From Nitrospira sp. (GTDB lineage: Bacteria; Nitrospirota; Nitrospiria; Nitrospirales; Nitrospiraceae): DNA of 64,000 nucleotides. The notes under the pieces were generated by a model. That model made no database searches and was not told the DNA's origin. It saw only the letters and a program-made list of their open reading frames with translations. Of the stretch, positions 3,934 through 57,725 are shown piece after piece (the stretch's first letter is position 1; each line of letters starts with the position of its first letter). Location: positions 1 to 64,000 of the forward strand of contig JAHBWU010000003.1 of NCBI GenBank assembly GCA_019636835.1. Reading direction: 5' to 3'. A program made the translations under genes and the position numbers.

Positions 3934-4599
3934 ATGGCCCCGCGATTCAACAAAGAACCGATCAACCTCATTCATCGCATTCCTTCGCAGAAGCAAATCG
4001 ATGAAGCTCGTCCTGTGCCCGCACCCTATGGTCAGCTCCTGCTCGATGCCGGAGCTGCTTGCTGGCGCAAGATGGTTGATCTCTTTGCGTATGTGACGCG
4101 GTATGAGGACGAGACCTCTCCACGGATTCGTAAACCGCTTGCGCTGCCCGACCGAACGATGGAGCACGCCACGATTCAACAGGATCACCTCCGTCCGAAT
4201 GTTGGGGAAGAGCCGGTCCAGGAAGCAGAGAATTCTCGGGCTGCAACGGTCACAATCCTACAAAAGCCGGTCCAGGCACCGACTCTTGTTCAGTCGGAGG
4301 AAGCCGCCGAACTCCGAGCTTTTCTGGTCGGGCAACAGGATGAGATTGCCCGGCTTACTTCACACATTCAAGAACTCACGTCCTTGGTCAGCTCTCAGCA
4401 ACAGGTCCTCGTTCATCTCGGTAAGGAGCTGGAAGCCGGTTCATTTTCGACAACCTCGACCAGCACGGCGGCCGCCTCCGTCAAGCGAAGCCGTATCGGT
4501 CGGAAGAAACCGACTGAAAATGAAACACCGCATCCGCTTCAGGAAAATGAGCATCCGCACGCTTCTCAGAAAAGTGAAGGCCCGTCACTCAATCTATAA
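3934..4599 (+). CDS. Hypothetical protein with central coiled coil
   Basis: 221-residue protein that I do not recognise. The N-terminal ~60 residues are mixed; a coiled-coil stretch follows around residues 125-170 (EEAAELRAFLVGQQDEIARL and after), then a low-complexity Ser/Thr/Lys-rich tail. No signal peptide, membrane helix or catalytic motif is seen. ATG3934 is preferred over ATG3916 because GAAGGGGA lies 8 bases before it. It sits alone between tldE and the exported TPR gene; the tail suggests a scaffold or DNA/protein-binding role, but nothing proves it. Confidence 0.6.
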   Translation: MAPRFNKEPINLIHRIPSQKQIDEARPVPAPYGQLLLDAGAACWRKMVDLFAYVTRYEDETSPRIRKPLALPDRTMEHATIQQDHLRPNVGEEPVQEAENSRAATVTILQKPVQAPTLVQSEEAAELRAFLVGQQDEIARLTSHIQELTSLVSSQQQVLVHLGKELEAGSFSTTSTSTAAASVKRSRIGRKKPTENETPHPLQENEHPHASQKSEGPSLNL

Positions 4600-10071: not shown

Positions 10072-10197
10072 ACAGGCTGTTGAAAAAGTCCGCCAGCGGC
10101 GTTCTCGCGGCGCTTAGAGGCTCAACGTACGATCCAAAGTACGCTTCGCCTCCTCGCTTGCTGCGGCCTTGCTGGACGGCCTTTTTGAACAGCCTGT
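10072..10197. repeat. Dispersed palindromic element, copy 1 (126 bp)
   Basis: Ends are inverted repeats: ACAGGCTGTTGAAAAAG at the left and CTTTTTGAACAGCCTGT at the right. The core shares GTTCTCGC, CTCAACGTAC and CTGCGGCCTTGC with copies at 11328, 23675 and 57530. It lies between divergent cysQ and corA. Transcribed, it would fold into a long hairpin. No protein is encoded; it is a REP/MITE-like element. Confidence 0.85.
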
Positions 10198-43796: not shown

Positions 43797-43889
43797 CCAC
43801 ACTTCTTCCCCCATAGGGGGCGTAGTTTCTTCTAAGGAAAACGGGTAAGCTTCGGCGGCTTGTCAGGCAGCGGAGTAGAGGTATCCGAA

Positions 43890-46781
43890 TTGACTGACTT
43901 CACCCCGTACCACGCCAAATACTTCGCCCATGATCTGACTCGTCGGGCTACAACAGGCATGGATCGGTTGTCCGTGTCCCTCTTTGACGCGGCGGTAGAT
44001 CTGAATCCGCACCAGATCGAGGCTGCCCTGTTTGCGCTACAATCACCGCTTTCCAAGGGAGTCATTCTTGCCGATGAAGTTGGCCTTGGAAAGACAATAG
44101 AAGCCGGCATCGTGCTCTGTCAGTTTTGGGCGGAGCGCAAGCGGCGACTCCTGGTGCTGTGTCCTGCCTCCCTCCGCAAACAATGGGCACTTGAGTTAGA
44201 AGAGAAATTTAACCTGCCTGCTCTGGTCTTGGATGCAAAAGCCTATCGCGCAGCCCAACGGAGTGGGCGCGCTCCGCTCGCTGAGAAAGCCGTCATCATT
44301 CTTTCATTCAACTATGGAAATGTGTTGCGCGAGGAATTGAAGGCCATCCAATGGGACCTGGTGGTGATTGATGAAGCGCACAAACTCCGCAATGCCTATA
44401 GGCCGAGCAACAAAGTGGGGCAAGGTTTACGGTGGGCCACCGAGGACTGCCGCAAACTCCTCCTAACCGCGACGCCGCTGCAAAACTCCCTCCTCGAACT
44501 CTACGGGCTCTCGACATTGATCGACGATCATCTCTTCGGGGATATCAACGGCTTCCGGGCACAGTACGCCGGTACAGGCGGCAATCTTCCCGAGCTACGT
44601 CAACGGCTGTCCGGTTTCTGCAAGCGCACGCTGAGAAACCAAGTGACCGAGTACATCCGCTACACCGAGCGACGGCCCATGACGCGTCCCTTCACGCCGA
44701 CCGATGATGAACACGCACTGTACGAGGCCGTCTCGGCATTCTTGCAGCGACCCGACAGCTACGCCCTCCCACATCGTCAACGCCACCTCACCGCCTTAAT
44801 CCTCCGCAAGCTGCTGGCCTCATCATCGCAAGCCATCGCCGCCACATTAGATACGCTCAGAGAGCGTTTAGAAGTACTACAAGATGCGCAGGCCCAAAGC
44901 GATCCGGACTTCGCCGAACGGCTGATCGAAGCGGAAGAGATCGAAGACGAGTTGCTCGATGAGATCCTAGTAGAAGATGAGGAGACGGAGGATACATCGG
45001 CAGCTCCTGCAAGCATTGATGGGAAGAAGCTGCGGGAGGAAATAGACATTCTTGGGCAGCTAGCTGCTGGGGCTAAACAGATTGGCGTCGATACCAAGAC
45101 GCGAACACTCCTGAGCGCCCTGGAAATTGGCTTCGAGCAGATGGCAGCCACAGGGGCAGGCCGCAAGGCGCTCATTTTCACAGAGTCAAGGCGCACACAA
45201 GAGTACTTGAAGCTGTTTCTCGAATCCCATGGCTACCAAGGGCAAGTGGTCATCTTCAACGGAACGAATAGTGGGCCTGAGGCGACGGCGTTCTATGAGA
45301 CATGGGCTGAGAAGAATAAGGACACGGGGCGCGCATCCGGTTCGCGAGCGGTCGATGTCCGCACAGCCCTCATCGAGCACTTTCGGGATACGGCATCCAT
45401 CATGCTCGCTACCGAAGCTGCTGCAGAGGGCATCAACCTCCAATTTTGCTCCCTCGTCATCAACTACGATCTGCCGTGGAACCCCCAGCGGATCGAGCAG
45501 CGTATCGGTCGCTGTCACCGATACGGACAGAAGCATGATGTCGTGGTCATTAACTTCTTAAACGAGCGGAATGAGGCCGATCGCCGCGTGCTCGAGTTAC
45601 TCACAGAGAAGTTCAATCTGTTCAGCGGAGTCTTCGGTGCATCGGATGAGATACTTGGAACCATCGAATCCAGCGTGGATTTCGAAAAGCGGATTCTGGC
45701 CATCTATCAGGAATGTCGGACCCCTGATGAAATCGAGGCGGCCTTCCGCAAGCTCCAGCAGGAGATGGATGAGCGCATCCGCACAAGAATGGACGACACG
45801 CGGCGTCTCCTCTTCGAGCATTTCGATGAAGACGTGCACCAGAGGCTCCGCATGCAACTGGCCGATGCCAAAGCCCAACTCGATAGGTTCGGCAAGAAAT
45901 TCTGGGGCTTGACGAAATATATACTCCACGACCGGGCGCGTTTCGACGAGAACGCCCTAGCGTTCGACCTTCTTCAACCACCGTGCCTCGATATCGCAGC
46001 AGGCCGCTACCACCTGATCTCCAAGTCACAGCCGCGAGTTGACGAGGACGGAGGCGAGGAGCGAAGCCTCTTTCTCTACCGGCTCTCCCATCCACTCGGC
46101 GAGCATGTCGTGGAGGCCGGCAAAACTCTGGACACTCCGGCTGCCCAGATTATCTTTGATGCGACCCACCATCAGCCTCGCGCCCATACAGTGGAAGCCC
46201 TTCGAGGCAAGCGAGGCTATCTGACGCTGACGCGGTTGACGATCGACTCCTATGAGCGCGAAGAGTATTTGCTCTTCTCGGGTTTCGACGAAGGCGGCAT
46301 CTCGCTCGATCAGGAGACGATGGAGAAGTTGTTTGGGTGCGATGGGAAAGCAGACGGCGGGAGGCAGATGCCAGATGCCGTTGCCCAACGACTCGCCGCT
46401 GAATCGGACCGTCATGCCCAAGCGACGGTCAGCCGATCCCTTGAGCAAAACAGCGTCCATTTCAACCAAGCGCGGGAGAAGCTGGAGAAATGGACTGACG
46501 ATATGGTGCTCGCCGCCGAGAAGGCGCTACAAGATACAAAAGAACAGATCAAGGCCCTAAGAAGGATGGCGCGGCAGGCCACCACCCTACAAGAACAGCA
46601 TCAGATTCAGGAAAAGATGAGGAAGCTGGAGCAGACTCAGCGGCGGCAGCGGCAAGACATTTTCAAGGCCGAGGACGAGATCATGGACAAGCGCGATGCT
46701 CTGGTCGAATCTCTGGAACGCCGACTCGCCCAGCGAACCGAGAGTGAGACATTGTTCAGCATCCAATGGGCTGTCGATTGA
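43890..46781 (+). CDS. SNF2/RapA-type helicase of a restriction-like defence operon
   Basis: 963-residue SF2 ATPase. Helicase motifs: Walker A DEVGLGKTIEAG (about 62-73), Walker B DEAH (161-164), LLTATPLQNSLLELYGL, and the C-terminal EAAAEGINLQ...RIEQRIGRCHRYGQ (about 515-548), typical of RapA/SNF2 translocases. An acidic insert (EEIEDELLDEILVEDEETED) separates the lobes; a C-terminal coiled coil follows (about 850-940). TTG43890 is chosen because GAGG lies upstream and homologues begin near LTDFTPYHAKYFA; TTG43860 is an alternative. It likely remodels or translocates on DNA for the downstream methyltransferase-nuclease genes. Confidence 0.88.
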   Translation: MTDFTPYHAKYFAHDLTRRATTGMDRLSVSLFDAAVDLNPHQIEAALFALQSPLSKGVILADEVGLGKTIEAGIVLCQFWAERKRRLLVLCPASLRKQWALELEEKFNLPALVLDAKAYRAAQRSGRAPLAEKAVIILSFNYGNVLREELKAIQWDLVVIDEAHKLRNAYRPSNKVGQGLRWATEDCRKLLLTATPLQNSLLELYGLSTLIDDHLFGDINGFRAQYAGTGGNLPELRQRLSGFCKRTLRNQVTEYIRYTERRPMTRPFTPTDDEHALYEAVSAFLQRPDSYALPHRQRHLTALILRKLLASSSQAIAATLDTLRERLEVLQDAQAQSDPDFAERLIEAEEIEDELLDEILVEDEETEDTSAAPASIDGKKLREEIDILGQLAAGAKQIGVDTKTRTLLSALEIGFEQMAATGAGRKALIFTESRRTQEYLKLFLESHGYQGQVVIFNGTNSGPEATAFYETWAEKNKDTGRASGSRAVDVRTALIEHFRDTASIMLATEAAAEGINLQFCSLVINYDLPWNPQRIEQRIGRCHRYGQKHDVVVINFLNERNEADRRVLELLTEKFNLFSGVFGASDEILGTIESSVDFEKRILAIYQECRTPDEIEAAFRKLQQEMDERIRTRMDDTRRLLFEHFDEDVHQRLRMQLADAKAQLDRFGKKFWGLTKYILHDRARFDENALAFDLLQPPCLDIAAGRYHLISKSQPRVDEDGGEERSLFLYRLSHPLGEHVVEAGKTLDTPAAQIIFDATHHQPRAHTVEALRGKRGYLTLTRLTIDSYEREEYLLFSGFDEGGISLDQETMEKLFGCDGKADGGRQMPDAVAQRLAAESDRHAQATVSRSLEQNSVHFNQAREKLEKWTDDMVLAAEKALQDTKEQIKALRRMARQATTLQEQHQIQEKMRKLEQTQRRQRQDIFKAEDEIMDKRDALVESLERRLAQRTESETLFSIQWAVD

Positions 46782-47191
46782 GTGTTCAGCGTTCAGGTTT
46801 CAGTGTTCAGGGGGAGAGTGATGTATCAGTCGTTTGAGGAGCTAGAGGTTTGGAAACGCGCATGCCATCTTGCGGTGCGGATCTACAAACTGTTACAGGA
46901 ATGCCGAGATTACGGACTCAGGGATCAGATGCAGCGTGGGGCCGTGTCGATCGCCTCGAATATTGCAGAAGGGGCTGAACGTGGAGGGAAGGACTTCATC
47001 CGCTTCTTGAGCATTGCACGTGGTTCCGCTGCTGAATTGCGAACGCAGTGTTACATTGCCGGTAAGATTGGCATTCTCCCGTCCGAACAGATAGAGCAGC
47101 TCGTATCTGAACTCCAAGAGATATCTAAAATGCTCACCGGCCTTGCCCGCTCCATCGGGACAAGAACTGAAAACTGAACACTGAAAACTGC
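46782..47191. mobile_element. Inverted-repeat element A carrying a four-helix-bundle gene
   Basis: Left end (46782-46810) contains TTTCAGTGTTCAG (46798-46810); right end (47165-47191) contains its perfect complement CTGAACACTGAAA (47174-47186) plus further ACTGAAAACTG units. The element starts at the base after the helicase stop and ends 1 base before the methyltransferase ATG. The right end even supplies the stop codon of the enclosed gene. Two cargo-less relatives (B, C) lie inside the methyltransferase gene. Confidence 0.75.
46821..47177 (+). CDS. Four-helix-bundle protein (23S rRNA intervening-sequence protein family)
   Basis: 118-residue all-helical protein: YQSFEELEVWKRACHLAVRIYKL, CRDYGLRDQMQRGAVSIASNIAEGAERG, FIRFLSIARGSAAELRTQCYIAGKIGIL. 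These are the marks of the S23/IVS protein family first seen in spirochaete 23S rRNA insertions and distantly of Avd proteins of diversity-generating retroelements. The fold forms pentamers that bind nucleic acid; the role is unknown. ATG46821 follows GGGGAGAG. The gene lies between inverted repeats and interrupts the helicase-methyltransferase junction, so it looks like a passenger rather than a working part of the operon. Confidence 0.87.
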   Translation: MYQSFEELEVWKRACHLAVRIYKLLQECRDYGLRDQMQRGAVSIASNIAEGAERGGKDFIRFLSIARGSAAELRTQCYIAGKIGILPSEQIEQLVSELQEISKMLTGLARSIGTRTEN

Positions 47192-47192
47192 T

Positions 47193-50100
47193 ATGAGTCA
47201 GAAATACGAAAAGCTAAAGACCCTCCTCAAAGAGTTGTTTCAGCTCGACCAGCCGGACCTGGACTTCGGCCTGTACCGCATCATGCACGCCAAGGCCGGG
47301 GAGGTAACTCAGTTTTTGGAGAAAGATCTCTTACCACAAGTGAGAGAGGCCTTCAGCCTGTACAAGACCGCAGACAAAGCTGAACTGGAGAAAGAACTGG
47401 CAACGGCGATTGAGCAAGCACAAGGGCTCGGTGTCGATCCGGAGACGACACAGAAAGTGAAGGACCTGCGCGCGAAACTCGCCAACGATGCCGTGGACAT
47501 CGGTGCGCTGGAACAAGAAGTCTATGACCACCTCTACAGTTTCTTCCGCCGCTACTACTCGGAGGGCGATTTTCTTGCGAAGCGGGTCTATAAACCCGGC
47601 GTCTATGCCATTCCCTACGAGGGCGAGGAGGTCAAGCTCCACTGGGCCAATAAGGATCAGTACTACATCAAGACCAGCGAATATCTGCGCGAGTACAGTT
47701 TTCAGTGTTCAATGTTCAGTGTTCAGGAAGAGGGGCAACTGAAAACTGAATCACTGAAAACTGAACACTCTCGTAGGGTTCACTTCCGGCTCGTCGAAGC
47801 CACCGAGGGGGAGCACGGCAATGTCAAGGAGGCCGCAGGCAAAGATCGGCGCTTCAAGCTGGCTCCAGCGCCCTTCGCGGCCGTGGAAGGTGGCGAGCTG
47901 GTGATCCGCTTCACCTACGAGCCCGACCCGGCGAAGCAGAAGGAACTAAACACCGCAGCCGAGGCCGCGATCCTTGGCCTGAACGACGCCACGCTCGCCG
48001 ACTGGCTCAAGGCCATGGGAGCGAAGCATATTCGTTCTGATGGCACTGTATCGGATGCTACCCGCCTGCGTGTGCATCTGGACCGATACACCGCGCGCAA
48101 TACCTTCGACTACTTCATTCACAAGGACCTGGGTTGCTTCCTACGCAGAGAACTGGACTTCTATATCAAAAACGAAGTCATGCACCTGGACGATGTAGAA
48201 AGTGAGACGACAGCCCGCGTCGAGCAGTATCTCTCCAAGATCAAAGTGATTCGTCGTATCGCCGGCAAGATCATCGCTTTTCTTGCCCAGCTTGAAGATT
48301 TCCAGAAGAAGCTCTGGCTCAAAAAGAAGTTTGTGGTGCAGACGGATTACTGCATTACACTCGGTTGCATCCCGAAGGAGTTCTATCCAGAGATTGCGGC
48401 CAACGATGCTCAACGCCAGGATTGGATAAGGCTGTTCGCCATCGACGAGATCAAAGGGGAAGCTACGAAGATGGGGTACAGCGTGCCGCTGACGGTCGAA
48501 TTCCTAAAACACAATCGAAATCTTATCCTCGATACTCAGTTCTGGCCGCAGGATTTTAAGGACCGACTTATCGCGGCGTTGCCTGCAATTGATGATAGCG
48601 TTTCAGGGGTTTTAGTCTGTGGGGACAACCGTCATGCACTCGATCTATTGCGCTGCCGATTTAGGAAGCAGGTGAAGTGTATATATATCGATCCGCCATA
48701 TAACACGGGGGAGGACGATTTCCCCTACAAGGATAGTTATCAGCATTCAAGCTGGATGTGCATGATGAAAGAGCGCGCCGAGCTGGCGCGCTCTTTCATG
48801 GCGAATGATGCCCTCTTTGCCGCGCAAATTGGTGATGACGAGGCGGCGCGGCTACGTCTTGTTCTTGACGATGTATTTGCCGAGCGCAAGAACTCTGCAG
48901 TTGTTAGGCGGGGCATTAAGAATGTTCAAGCTCAGTTCACCGACATCGACCGGCTGACGCTTGGTCACGATATCGTGCATGTGTACACGGCCGGAACCGG
49001 AATTCGATTACCGCACCTGCGTCAAGCACTCGAGGCCGATAAACCAGGTAAGTGGGACACCTTCTGGCGCGGAACTGACCGGGAAACTATGCGATACGAA
49101 CTCTTCGGAGAGAATCCGACGACTGGACAGTGGCGCTGGGAAGAAGGCCGCGCGAAGCGGGCCGTTCGTAACTATGAGCGTTATTTGGAAATGGAGGCTT
49201 CTCACAAAGCGCTGGACGAGTGGTATGCGGAGAATCTTCAAGCTGGAGTGGACTTGGACTTTGTGAGATTAAATGAAGACCAAGTTGTACAGTACTACGT
49301 GCCACCGCAAGGGTTCCGTCTGGTAAGTGACAACTGGCTGGATATTCCGGCGGCAGGGAATCTGACGGAGTTTCCTCACGAAAAGTCGCTGTATCTTCTC
49401 CAGCGCATAATCGGCTGGTGTACTACACCTGGCGATTGGGTTCTGGACTACTTCGCAGGCTCAGGCTCTACTGGTCACGCAGCATTTGCAATGCAGCCAG
49501 TAAATCAAGGGAAAAGGCGGTACATTCTTGCCGAAATGGCTTTATATTTTGATTCGACGCTAATGCCCAGAATTAAGCAATACGCCTACTGTGTCGCCTA
49601 TCGAGACGGAAAGCCGCTGAATCGCGACTCGGGAACTTCTCAAACGCTCAAGTACATGCGCTTGGAATCTTATGAGGATGTTTTGAACAATCTGGAGACA
49701 CGCCGTTCCAAGGTGCAGCAATCCCTCTTGGAGTCATCCGACACCCACGGCACTGACGGTCTCAAGGAGCAATATCTTCTCCGCTACATGCTCGACGTGG
49801 AGACGCGTGGGAGCCAGTCACTGCTGAACATCCAGGCCTTCAAGGACCCGACCGCTTACAAACTGAAAGTCAAACGGTCCGGCTCTGACGAGACCCGTGA
49901 GGTCAATGTCGATCTCCTGGAGACCTTCAATTGGCTCATCGGCCTCACGGTCCACCACATTGCCGCTCCACAGAAGTTCACCGCTGCATTCGAACGAGAC
50001 AGCGAGAAACGGCTTCGGCTGCGCGGCCGGCTAAAGCCGGTCGTGAGTGTTCAGAGTTCAGTCGTCAGTGTTCAGAAGGAAAAGACTCGCGAGTCTTCAC

Positions 50101-50405
50101 TGAAAACTGAACCACTGAACACTGAAAACTGTTTCTGGTTTCGCACGGTTACCGGCACGACGCCGGACGGTCGCAAGACGCTCGTGATTTGGCGAAAGCT
50201 GACCGGCAATCTTGAGGAAGACAACCTGGTGCTCGACGAATGGTTTACCAAGCAGGGGTACTCGACGAAAGACTATGAATTCCAGCTCATCTATGTAAAC
50301 GGCGATAACAATCTGGAGAACCTCAAGGCACCAGATGACACCTGGAAAGTCCGGCTGATCGAAGAGGATTTCCATCGGTTGATGTTCGATACGGAGGGGG
50401 TCTGA
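47193..50405 (+). CDS. Site-specific DNA N6-adenine methyltransferase (Mod-like, beta class) with two in-frame repeat inserts
   Basis: 1070-residue methyltransferase. Motif IV DPPYNTG begins at residue 500 and the SAM-binding motif [13 protein letters not shown] at about 752, i.e. the beta order of type III Mod enzymes. Between them lies a ~140-residue presumed target-recognition region. A large N-terminal domain (1-480) and a C-terminal domain (from about 830) distinguish it from short Mods. Residues about 168-193 and 952-980 are translated from palindromic repeats (elements B and C) and read SVQ/LKTE-rich peptides foreign to the family. ATG47193. The next gene is coupled by TGATG at 50403-50407. 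Confidence 0.92.
47696..47770. repeat. Inverted-repeat element B, in frame inside the methyltransferase gene
   Basis: Left arm CAGTTTTCAGTGTTCA... (47696-47726) and right arm CTGAAAACTGAATCACTGAA... (47739-47769) are imperfect inverted repeats made from the same TTTTCAGTGTTCAG unit as element A, around a short GAAGAGGGGCA loop. Length and phase keep the reading frame open; it is translated as FSVQ- and LKTE-containing peptide between YSF and RRVHF, two segments that look contiguous in the family. Confidence 0.85.
50047..50131. repeat. Inverted-repeat element C, in frame inside the methyltransferase gene
   Basis: Left arm 50047-50075 (GTGTTCAGAGTTCAG...) and right arm 50098-50131 (ending CTGAACACTGAAAACTG, identical to the right end of element A at 47174-47190) surround a perfect 16-bp palindrome AAGACTCGCGAGTCTT (50082-50097). 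The frame stays open and encodes [10 protein letters not shown] and [11 protein letters not shown]. The RNA would form a long stem with the palindrome at its tip. Confidence 0.87.
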
Positions 50406-51505
50406 TGCCGAAGCGGAAGGGCTCGCGGTCCTTGCTTGCGCGGCCCACTGAGCCGCTGTATCGGCAGATCAGGACCGTCCTCGACTCGGCCCGCACAGGC
50501 GCCTACCGAGCTGTGAATGCTGCCATGGTGCAGGCGTATTGGCACATCGGCCGGCTCATCGTCGAACACGAACAAAGAGGACGTCAGCGAGCGGGTTACG
50601 GCGAGGCTCTTCTGGAGACCTTGGCGCGCCGACTCACCACCGAGTTCGGGCCAGGATTCGACGTGACCAATCTACGCAAGATGCGACAGTTCTTTCGAAT
50701 GTTCCAGATTCGAGACGCACCGCGTCTCGTTTCCCAGGCCTCGCCGACACGGCCCCTGGTCTCCGAGACCTTGAGCTGGACGCACTACCGCTTCCTGATG
50801 CAGGTTGAAGATGGGGCGGCCCGCGAGTGGTATCTGCGGGAAGCCGCCGATCAGCACTGGTCCACCAGGCAACTGGAACGGCAAATCTCCGTCTTCTACT
50901 ATGAACGCCTGCTGGCCAGCCGCAAGAAAGCGCCTGTCCGGAAGGAAGCCAGGGAGAAGCTTGCCGCCGTCGCGCCGGACCAGTTCATCCGTGATCCGTA
51001 CGTGCTTGAGTTTCTGGATCTGAAGGACTACCCCGCGTTGCGAGAATCGGCGATCGAGCAGGCGATCATCGACAACTTGCAGGCATTTTTGCTGGAATTG
51101 GGCCGTGGCTTTTCGTTCGTGGCCCGGCAGAAACGCCTTCGCTTCGACGATGAGGACTTCTACATCGATCTGGTGTTCTACAACTACGTGCTCAAGTGTT
51201 TTGTGCTCATCGACTTGAAGGTCGGGGCCCTCACCCATCAGGACATCGGCCAGATGGATTCGTATGTGCGGATGTTCGACGCGCATGCGCGACCGAGGGA
51301 GGACAATCCGACGATCGGGCTGATCCTGTGTTCGAAGAAGAACGAAGCCATCGCTAAATATTCGGTGCTGCGCGAAGCCCGGCAGATTTTCGCGGCGAAG
51401 TACCAGAAGCATCTGCCGTCGGAAATCGAACTGCAACGAGAGGTCGAACGTGAACGACGTCTCATTGACGCTCGCCGCGCATCGGGAAAGACGGGTCACG
51501 ACTGA
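50405..51505 (+). CDS. YhcG/DUF1016 PD-(D/E)XK nuclease
   Basis: 366-residue DUF1016 protein. N-terminal winged-helix-like region ([41 protein letters not shown]) and C-terminal PD-(D/E)XK nuclease domain with [13 protein letters not shown] (about 248-260) and LIDLKVG (about 268-274) as the metal-binding core. Such proteins are common accessory genes of type I and III restriction loci. Its start ATG50405 shares a base with the methyltransferase stop (TGATG), and its own stop is joined in the same way to the Res gene at 51505. Confidence 0.92.
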
Positions 51506-54500
51506 TGCCAAGGGGTCGACGTCGCAACGCGGCCTCTGCGACAGCAACGACTCGTCGGCGCCGTGCCAACCGAGCACCCGCCGTCCCGTTTTCGCATAAA
51601 CTGGTGCTGAATCAATGGTTGCTGTCGCTCTTCAATCTGACGCGCTTCGAAGACCTGGCCGAACATCTTCGCAATGAAAAGCTGGAAGGGTTGGACGAAA
51701 ATCACGTCCACTACTTCCACCACACCCTCACGGCCCATTTGTACAATCTGACTGCGCTTCCCACGGAGCTGTTGCTGGAATACGACCAGCGTATCGTGGC
51801 CATCACCCAGCGGCTGAACGAACGGCGGATCACGCGCGGGGAGACGCCGATTGTTTGGAAGTATTTTCAGTACTTATCCCTGTTATTCACGGAGATCTAC
51901 CTCGATCGCTATTTTTGCGATCCTCAGGGATTGTTGAAGGCGCTGAATACTCAGGTCGCTGTCTACAACGCTGACAAGGAGGAAGCCGATCAGGTGTCCC
52001 CGTTCGACGAACAGGCTGAAGCCTGGCCGCAACTCAACAAGCTCGCGTACTGGATGGCAACCGGCAGCGGCAAGACGCTCCTCATGCACGCCAATATTCT
52101 TCAGTACCAGCACTATCTGGAGACGCATGGTCGAAGACGGGAACTGAACCGGATCATTCTTCTCACTCCCAACGAGGGGCTCTCTCAGCAGCATCTGCGT
52201 GAATTTGAAGCTGCGGGTATTGCTGCGGAACTGTTCAACAAGGACGGACGGGGCCTGTTCGCAGGCCAGGCGGTCGAGATTCTGGATATCCATAAACTCG
52301 CCGAGGAGATGGGGGACAAGACGATTGCCGTTGACGCATTCGAGGGGAACAACCTGGTCTTGATCGACGAGGGCCACCGTGGGGCGAGCGGCGGGGAAGA
52401 CGGTACATGGATGCGTTTTCGTGAAGCGCTCTGCGAGAAAGGGTTTTCCTTCGAGTACTCGGCCACCTTTGGTCAGGCCGTGAAGGGAAACAAGGTGCTC
52501 ACGGACCTCTACGCCAAGAGCATCCTGTTTGACTACTCCTATCGTTACTTCTATGGCGACGGGTTCGGGAAGGACTATCAAATCCTGAATCTTGACGAAG
52601 ACACCCAACAACATCACCTCGAACTGTACCTGGTGGCCTGCCTTCTCTCCTTCTATCAGCAGCAGCGGCTGTACCGCGAGCAGGGTCGCTCTTTCCAAGC
52701 TTTTCATATTGAGAAACCGCTGTGGATCTTTGTTGGTGGAAGCGTGACGGCAACCCTTGCGAAGAAGGACGCGTCCGATATCGTCGAGATCCTCCAGTTC
52801 CTTGCGCGCTACGTTGCCGATCGCGCTGGAAGCATCCAGCGCATTGAACGAGTGTTGAATCAGGGACTGATCACAGCGACCGGCAGGAATTTGTTTGCCG
52901 GTCGATTCACCTATCTAAATACCAGTGGTGTGACGGCGCCTCAGGTGTTCGATGACACGCTCGCGACGCTGTTTCACGCGCCTGGCGGTGGGCAGCTCTA
53001 CGTCGAGAACCTCAAAGGTGCTACGGGAGAGGTCGCCCTGAGGCTTGGCGCAGAAAACGATCCCTTTGGTGTGATTAACGTGGGCGACGATGCCAAGCTG
53101 GTGAAGCTCTGCGAAGAGAAGGGGCTAGCGACCGGCAATCGGGAATTCGCCGGCTCACTATTCCATGACATCAACCATCAGGACTCGAAGGTGAATGTCC
53201 TCATTGGGTCCAAGAAATTCACCGAGGGGTGGAGTAGTTGGCGCGTCTCGACCATGGGACTGATGAACGTCGGCAAAGGGGAAGGAGCGCAAATTATTCA
53301 GCTCTTCGGCCGTGGCGTCCGACTGAAAGGCTATGGAGACCCGTGGAGTCTGAAGCGGACCGGCAAAGTTCTGTTGCCAGATGGGATAGAACGTCCGAAG
53401 CACATTGGATTGCTTGAAACGTTGGGAATCTTCGGCATTCACGCGGACTATATGGCGCAGTTCCGTGACTTTCTCCTTGAGGAAGGGTTACAGCCTAACG
53501 AAGAACAGATCGAGATCCTGCTCCCAGTCATCAAACACCTCGGTACTCAGAAACTTAAAACCATCAGGTTGAAGAAGACCATCAACGGTGTGAGCACCGA
53601 ATTCGGCGATGCCTTTCGTAAGCTCGGACCTGTGCCGACCCTTGGGATACCAGATGCCTATCTGCAGAAGAACCAGGTGGTCCTGAACTGGTATCCGAAA
53701 ATCAAGGCGATCAAGTCAGCGGGCGTCGTGGGCGGAGATGGCGACGCCGCGCCGAATCAGACCCATCTCACCAAGAAACATCTTGCCTTTCTCGATCTGG
53801 ACCGATTGTACTTTGAGCTGGAACGGTTTAAGGCAGAGCGAGGCTGGTACAATCTCAATATCTCGCGGGATGGGATCGGGCCTCTGCTCGAGGATCAGAG
53901 CTGGTATCAATTGCTCATTCCGGCTGAGGAAATGGCGCTCGACTCGTTCGAGAAAGTCCGGTTATGGGAAGACATTGCGCTGTCGCTGCTGAAGAAATAC
54001 ACCGAACGTTACTACTTCTTTCGAAAGCGCGAGTGGGAAGAGCCTTATCTTGAATATCAGGAACTCGCTCCCGATGATCCCAATCTCCTCGGCGCGGGTG
54101 ACACGGCGAAAGATCCCTACTATCGCATCCTCCTTGAGCAATCGCAGCAAGAGATCGTTGCCAAGTTGGAGGAGCTGAAGGCTCTTATCGAAACAGGCAC
54201 GCTCAAGCCATGGGAGTTCCAAGGGCTCAAAGCGATCTGGTTTGGCCGACACCTGTACGAGCCGTTGCTTTATCTGGACCAGAACATTGTCGAAATAAGT
54301 CCGGTAGCACTCAACAAGGGAGAGAAACAGTTCGTTGAGGATCTGAAAACTTTTCATGATGGCGGAAGCGGCCTGTTGGCTGGAAAGGAGCTGTACCTCC
54401 TTCGCAACCTCAGTAAGGGTCGCGGCGTTGGCTTCTTCGAAGCTGGGAACTTCCATCCGGATTTCATTCTCTGGTTGCTGACGGGCGATGCACAGCATGT

Positions 54501-54774
54501 GATCTTCGTCGATCCCAAGGGCATTCGAAATATCGGTTTCAGTGATCCGAAGGTCCAGTTCTACGAAACTATTAAGGATATCGAACGTCGCCTTGACGAT
54601 CCGAAGGTCCAGCTGAATTCATTCATCATCTCTTCTACTTCTTCCGCTACCATGAAGATGCTGTGGGGGATCGATAAGAAGGCGATGAATGAGCGGCATA
54701 TCCTGTTTCAGGAGGAAGACACCTATATCCGGTCTATGCTAGAGACTGCTCTAACCAGTGATGTGTCGATCTGA
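51505..54774 (+). CDS. Type III restriction Res-like helicase-endonuclease
   Basis: 1089-residue SF2 helicase with a terminal nuclease domain. Walker A ATGSGKT (185-191), Walker B DEGH (288-291), SATF (about 319) and motif [13 protein letters not shown] (about 599-609). The C-terminal [10 protein letters not shown]...VIFVDPKG (about 985-1004) is the PD-(D/E)XK endonuclease core of Res subunits. An Arg/Ala-rich N-terminal tail precedes the conserved part. With the Mod-like gene it would form a type III restriction-modification pair; the intervening nuclease and the SNF2 helicase are additions. Last gene of the coupled operon. Confidence 0.93.
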
Positions 54775-57253: not shown

Positions 57254-57529
57254 ATGAGAAAGGCGGATATCGCTGAGGAAATTTTCAAGCAAGTCGGTCT
57301 CTCGAAAAATGAAGCCGCTGATATCGTCGAGTATGTCCTGAATTTGCTGAAGTCTGTCTTGCAGAAGGGAGAATCGGTCAAAATCGCGGGGTTTGGGAAT
57401 TTTGTTGTCCGCAGCAAGGGAGCCCGTAAAGGACGAAATCCTCGAACTGGAGAAGAAATTGGAATTACCCCTCGTCGAGTCGTTACGTTTCGGCCGAGCC
57501 AGGTTTTCAAAAAGTACGTCAATTCATAG
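57254..57529 (+). CDS. ihfA: Integration host factor alpha-type DNA-bending protein
   Basis: 91-residue HU/IHF-family protein. It fits IHF-alpha: RKADIAEEIFKQVGLSKNEA, GFGNFVVRSKGARKGRNPRTGEEI (the DNA-intercalating arm with RNPRTGE) and ITPRRVVTFRPSQVFKKYVN. Bends DNA by about 160 degrees; roles in recombination, replication and transcription. A merR-like gene follows, the usual ihfA neighbour. The stop codon abuts palindromic element copy 4. Confidence 0.93.
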   Translation: MRKADIAEEIFKQVGLSKNEAADIVEYVLNLLKSVLQKGESVKIAGFGNFVVRSKGARKGRNPRTGEEIGITPRRVVTFRPSQVFKKYVNS

Positions 57530-57652
57530 CAGGATGCTGAAAAAAACCACCCGCTTCGTTCTCGCATCGCTCAAAGCCTCACCGTACGACGCATTGTACG
57601 ACTCGGCTTCTCGCTCGCTGCGGCCTTGCGGGCGGTCTTTTTGATCATCCTG
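57530..57652. repeat. Dispersed palindromic element, copy 4 (123 bp)
   Basis: Starts at the base after the ihfA stop. Ends CAGGATGCTGAAAAA and TTTTTGATCATCCTG are inverted repeats with a small mismatch. Core GTTCTCGCATCGCTCA, CTCACCGTACGAC, GTACGAC and GCTGCGGCCTTGCGG match the other copies. It may act as an ihfA terminator. Confidence 0.85.
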
Positions 57653-57725
57653 CGTAAACACAGCAGACAGGTTAACAAGCGCTCGGCTCCATCGATAAAG
57701 TACAAGGCGCACCGTGAGGCCGGTC

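Follow-up and report, generated by a model that had tools for sequence, protein, structure and literature searches.

The four-helix-bundle gene at the helicase-methylase junction of this Nitrospira contig most probably belongs to a mobile element of the 23S rRNA intervening sequence (IVS) type, a reading to which we assign a probability of about 0.7. Such an element is about 475 bp long and consists of two mutually inverted arrays of short tandem units that enclose one four-helix-bundle gene. The copy that holds the gene is element A, and two gene-less hairpins downstream, elements B and C, would be its local derivatives. The best reading of the 23S rRNA IVS is that it represents one case of this kind of element. 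The arrangement of a gene within heptamer arms generalizes far beyond the window, which is the whole 64,000-nucleotide stretch of DNA analyzed here.

Element A occupies the exact junction between an SNF2-type, DrmD-like helicase gene (43860-46781, plus strand) and a type III-like N6 DNA methylase gene (47193-50405, plus strand), and lies outside any 23S rRNA gene. The left arm (46782-46811, plus strand) is a tandem array of NNTTCAG heptamers with a period of 7 that begins immediately 3′ of the helicase stop, and the right arm (47165-47190, minus strand) is an array of inverted tandem heptamers. The initial annotation placed the gene between a repeat and its exact complement, and TTTCAGTGTTCAG is indeed found at 46798-46810 on the plus strand with its complement at 47174-47186. 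The same annotation allowed one base on each side of the element. The left array directly follows the helicase TGA (46779-46781), but the right array ends 2 nt, not 1, before the methylase ATG (47193). There are 16 near-matches to TTTCAGTGTTCAG in the window compared to 1.1 expected from shuffling, 14 of them inside 46777-50127. TTTCAGTGTTCAG and its complement are portions of longer degenerate heptamer arrays (NNTTCAG; TTCAGTG-type). The TTCAGTNTTCAG pattern has 9 matches in the whole 3.85 Mb genome and 8 are at the element locus, which indicates that the repeat belongs to the element.

The PF05635/TIGR02436 gene (46821-47177, plus strand; 118 amino acids) is the sole ORF between the arms of element A, and the element encodes no transposase and no enzyme. 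The protein matches PF05635 with E = 2e-34 and also matches TIGR02436 ('four helix bundle protein'). A Shine-Dalgarno-like GGGGGAG adjoins the left arm, and the TGA at 47175-47177 lies inside the right arm, confirming that the repeat provides the stop codon of the gene. An Rfam comparison of 46500-50500 yields no hit that reaches threshold and just one miRNA hit at chance level. PADLOC models describe the host operon (43860-54774) as a restriction/defence cassette composed of a DrmD-like helicase, a type III-like methylase, a PDC-S02-type nuclease and a type III restriction enzyme. Elsewhere in the window, at 10072-10197 and 57529-57653, lie ACAGGCTGTTGAAAAAGTCCG and GCAGGATGCTGAAAAAAACC, a related pair of inverted repeats without periodicity that look like another small dispersed repeat family.

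The same ends were said to recur twice downstream without cargo, and elements B (about 47695-47770, plus strand) and C (about 50044-50132, plus strand) do carry the heptamer of element A and no gene. Both hairpins are read in frame within the methylase and are missing from its homologues. As RNA they fold better than shuffled sequences, with z = -5.4 for B and -3.35 for C. Methylase homologues from the phylum served for the comparison with empty sites. One of them is in G168, whose helicase is 80% identical: its helicase-methylase gap is about 50 nt without element A, its methylase has GRLKQNADGPYWFR where the window carries the insertion of about 26 residues corresponding to C, and it is without most of the loop that B occupies. 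Two other genomes, G081 and G234, likewise have none of the three. These homologues identify A, B and C as insertions, the latter two in frame. The junction in G234 (L175, G234:C118) spans about 1.5 kb and holds small genes that by eye resemble a HigB/HigA-type toxin-antitoxin pair.

Inverted arms were called at a score of at least 26 with shifted positions in the same DNA as controls. The pooled PF05635 sample comprised 214 loci in more than 20 phyla, with Methanophagales archaea and CPR bacteria among them. Arms flank 162 of the 214 loci (76%) and 92 of 6595 shifted controls (1.4%), the percentage being approximate because same-genus loci are not all independent and matches were taken best first. 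The phylum set has arms at 44/58 loci (13/1083 shifted positions), the named loci from more than 20 phyla at 59/80 (53/3716) and the further loci at 61/79 (26/1796). The remaining 24% of the pooled loci have no detectable arms. The question raised earlier, whether relatives of the gene lack flanking repeats, is thus answered in substance by the inverted arrays at these 162 loci. A search for repeats resembling TTTCAGTGTTCAG at other four-helix-bundle genes had also been proposed, and here the expectation failed: the period of 7 and the inversion are conserved and the sequence is not. Other PF05635 genes bear other heptamers or 8- and 9-mers, even within one genome. Six PF05635 genes are present in the genome of the window; L002 has clear inverted arms built of a CTCAGTC heptamer, L003 has clear inverted arms built of the TTTGGTTTA nonamer, the heptamer arms of L004 score slightly below the threshold, and L005 has only a direct-repeat resemblance. 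TTCAGTG was considered as a universal end and rejected; the unit differs from one protein subfamily to the next.

A control with 155 small ORFs from 841 kb of the genus gave 7 that score, of which 4 are PF05635 genes, 2 are one orthologous glyoxalase and 1 is non-periodic. The glyoxalase was rejected as a second cargo gene, the two ORFs being host genes between gene-less hairpins beside locus 2. These glyoxalase-family orthologues (L345:917-1321 in G024 and L376:10063-10467 in the genome of the window) have GTCATTG heptamer arrays on both sides, and a full PF05635 element with that heptamer adjoins them. One query protein gave no match in phages, and plasmids gave 22 records, mostly from cyanobacteria. 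A motif search detected no 23S rRNA motifs at the sampled PF05635 loci.

The period among 159 elements is 7 nt in 128, 8 nt in 21 and 9 nt in 6, with about 4.4 units per arm (4-5) and a median element length of 475 bp. The left arm in the sense of the gene is G-rich (34% G, 12.5% C). The arms and the protein turn over together and each subfamily has its own unit, as shown by the cosine similarity of arm 5-mers, which is about 0.03-0.06 below 60% protein identity, 0.24 at 60-70%, 0.50 at 70-80% and 0.84 above 90%. The nearest relative, L040, is 71% identical to the window protein and has arms of the same TTCAGTG type at an unrelated locus. In Capnocytophaga, L107 and L120 represent one locus with flanks that are 87% identical, PF05635 proteins that are only 75% identical and different arm units; here the arms and the protein change fast compared with the flanks.

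Gene-less arrays tend to resemble the full element nearby. Arrays with an inverted partner have a period of 7 in 13 of 17 cases in 400 kb of one complete relative plus 377 kb of the genome of the window. Of the 172 other heptamer arrays that lie no more than 4 kb from a full element, 58 have the same heptamer as that element, compared to 2.1% for the heptamers of other loci (p = 2e-52), which makes the A-B-C cluster an instance of a general pattern (L080, L088, L092, L094, L108, L137 and L289 are examples). The densest local cluster observed is at L094 in Candidatus Chloroploca, where at least eight AGGTGTC-type arrays, one longer than 130 nt, lie within 4 kb of the PF05635 gene at 4001-4318.

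Evidence on movement comes from junctions that exist in three states. The two flanks of each of three elements were joined and used to search 59 genomes of the genus, and the junctions were then read. Locus 1, a gene-end/gene-start junction, was found in 33 genomes; 19 are empty, a gene-less hairpin of 90-130 nt, drawn from several heptamer families, occupies 6, and the other 8 contain a full element of either the AGGACTG or the AGTGCTG family. Loci 2 and 3 have a similar mix of states. Empty and filled sites in relatives, the comparison suggested at the outset, are therefore both present. The full site L236 is matched by the empty sister site L322, whose near flanks are 93-98% identical to its own; at single loci, assembly errors in metagenome-assembled genomes are possible. 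The flank tree rejects a single clade of AGGACTG carriers (p = 6e-5). The element tree rejects a grouping of L229 with L255 (p = 4e-5), and the flanks put both in one clade. The genes of L002 and L236 are 95% identical and their flanks are 82% and 88% identical. Repeated entry into one junction, or a horizontal exchange confined to the element, fits these data best. Some of the apparent gains at the same site could instead reflect repeated precise loss or homologous exchange.

The target duplications that were to be looked for at both ends are not seen in L236/L322, L002/L299 or L326/L301, pairs whose flanks are not identical. The comparison at locus 1 shows that about 20 nt located 5′ of the downstream ATG look replaced. 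Co-conversion of the flanks near locus 1 was considered and rejected, the near flanks being simply conserved. Copying of the heptamer from the target by microhomology was also rejected, since the locus-1 target is no more similar to its own heptamer family than to unrelated ones. Many elements sit at orthologous loci across the genus, which indicates that most are old residents and that movement is rare.

These orthologous loci, kept genus-wide while their arms change fast, also speak for a non-mobile explanation. The hairpins would then be mRNA-processing or regulatory structures that arise at junctions by slippage and quasi-palindrome correction, and PF05635 would be an ordinary resident gene whose product binds and regulates them. 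The occurrence of several heptamer families at one junction and the orientation in the sense of the operon agree with this proposal. It is at odds with the empty sister sites, the in-frame insertion in the methylase, the conflict between the element and flank trees and the closer similarity of L002 and L236 in the element than in the flanks, and we consider it unlikely. Of 110 PF05635 genes that lie between two genes of the same strand, 104 point in the same direction as these neighbors (p = 3e-24), and the G-rich arm comes first in 14 of 15 gene-less hairpins in tandem contexts. The shared polarity of the gene-less hairpins means that the bias does not merely reflect the need to express a gene. 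It also suits an RNA-level retroelement, in which the hairpin RNA would be bound by the Avd-like protein, reverse-transcribed by a reverse transcriptase (RT) acting in trans and integrated as in retrohoming, with the 23S IVS as one product; the residence of IVSs in rRNA known from the literature points the same way. Mismatches between the arms are G:U-compatible in 155 cases and of the A:C type in 172. This lack of wobble bias speaks against the retroelement, gives no signal of selection on an RNA stem through wobble pairs, a candidate that was therefore rejected, and means that RNA pairing cannot clearly be named as the property under selection. The arms may instead be kept alike through copying at the DNA level.

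The protein structure also bears on the choice of mechanism. The AF2 model of the window protein is a four-helix bundle (pLDDT 96.7) that resembles 2GSC and 2RLD (five chains each), and the Xanthomonas S23p protein is a homopentamer (PMC4990558). The net charge of the protein is about zero. The fold is shared with Avd of diversity-generating retroelements (PDB 4DWL; TM-score 0.82, 17% identity), a resemblance between the S23p-type and Avd folds already noted (PMC10053308), and this likeness favors the retroelement model. However, no RT is found between or beside the arms of element A, and TR and VR are likewise absent at the locus. PF05635 copy number does not correlate with RT counts (rho -0.14): an RT is missing both from G005, which has ten copies, and from the complete genome G024, which has six. 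On this balance the retroelement is improbable. A passenger of the IS200/IS605 or RAYT type, with hairpins moved in trans by a Y1 transposase, is very improbable. By inference from known systems, the hairpin ends, strand polarity, lack of target duplication and gene-less copies recall REP/REPIN systems, but copy number does not correlate with Y1 transposase counts either (rho -0.01), G005 and G017 (five copies) have no Y1 match, and it is the four-helix protein with which the arm sequence is linked. Neither an RT nor a Y1 transposase is needed in the resident genome.

The IVS-type mobile element remains the preferred explanation, and a pathway for it can be proposed. The element would integrate as DNA at gene junctions, now and then also in protein loops or rRNA, with replacement of short tracts. 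The protein, presumably pentameric like its solved relatives, may bind its own heptamer arrays, perhaps with one subunit per unit, and could assist host replication or repair in copying or annealing the hairpin. Gene-less hairpins such as B and C would be products of internal deletion or partial copying that are seeded preferentially nearby, and insertions would persist where cutting of the transcript or read-through does no harm. In the window, the helicase/methylase junction would have received A, from which B and C would have derived locally. A wider proposal, which we hold tentatively and rate somewhat below even odds, is that these elements form a distinct class in bacteria and archaea whose short, fast-evolving terminal tandem repeats are recognized through their period and inversion, not through their sequence. 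A single non-enzymatic, pentamer-forming protein would co-evolve with its own repeat and allow both the full element and the gene-less hairpins to return to the same gene junctions via host replication or repair. The 23S rRNA IVSs, the Nostoc P6b hairpins and many bacterial heptamer repeats would be products of this process.

The initial annotation compared A with an autonomous element and B and C with its MITE-like derivatives. In agreement with that comparison, the gene is carried as cargo by an element with repeats at its ends, and gene-less derivatives occur nearby and at the same sites, but the ends are not conserved in sequence. Pairs of insertion sequences and MITEs, like REPIN/RAYT systems, combine a coding copy with small gene-less copies that have common ends, as found here; the elements described here differ in having no transposase and in ends conserved in period, not sequence. 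Rickettsia palindromic elements are palindromes inserted in frame within protein genes, and they form conserved sequence families with no known coding partner. They resemble B and C in their in-frame insertion, and the elements here differ by their PF05635 coding partner.

The likeness to 23S rRNA IVSs drawn in the initial annotation proved apt, since these are the closest known relative. In the 428-nt IVS of Coxiella burnetii, the S23p ORF is preceded by three GACAGAT heptamers in tandem, and the ends of the IVS pair in a 28-bp stem that RNase III cleaves (PMC4990558). It has the same protein family, a similar size, stem-forming terminal inverted repeats and heptamers; unlike it, the elements here lie between or inside protein genes of operons, occur several times per genome and have gene-less derivatives. 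Among rRNA-gene insertions of CPR bacteria, some encode 23S_rRNA_IVP, the family shared with the elements here, and most encode LAGLIDADG endonucleases; the accessible part of that report does not describe heptamer arms (PMC11270868). The P6b hairpins of the Nostoc trnL intron consist of 7-nt motifs and have been exchanged many times at one site (PMC4476775). They resemble the gene-less hairpins and differ in lying inside a group I intron with no PF05635 gene reported. TAACTGA heptamers of Beggiatoaceae and cyanobacteria are tandem, adjacent to start codons and patchily distributed; they differ in being mostly direct repeats, and the available portion of the source gives no link to PF05635 (PMC4679880). 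A figure legend of one survey lists 23S rRNA IVP among the proteins newly associated with CRISPR (PMC10910872), and the heptamer arrays found here could in principle imitate repeat arrays.

Searches confined to an open-access library of papers turned up no publication that connects PF05635 genes as a whole with inverted heptamer arrays. The general pattern, an IVS-kind variant reaching far beyond rRNA genes, appears to be new. PF05635 is a very common family best known from rRNA-gene insertions, and the heptamer arms give it a concrete substrate to test. The presence of arms at three quarters of the sampled genes suggests why 23S rRNA IVSs carry PF05635, and it offers one origin for the heptamer repeats known from separate reports on Coxiella, cyanobacteria and Beggiatoaceae. 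If this is true, a widespread class of mobile DNA would have been overlooked because its ends share a period and not a sequence.
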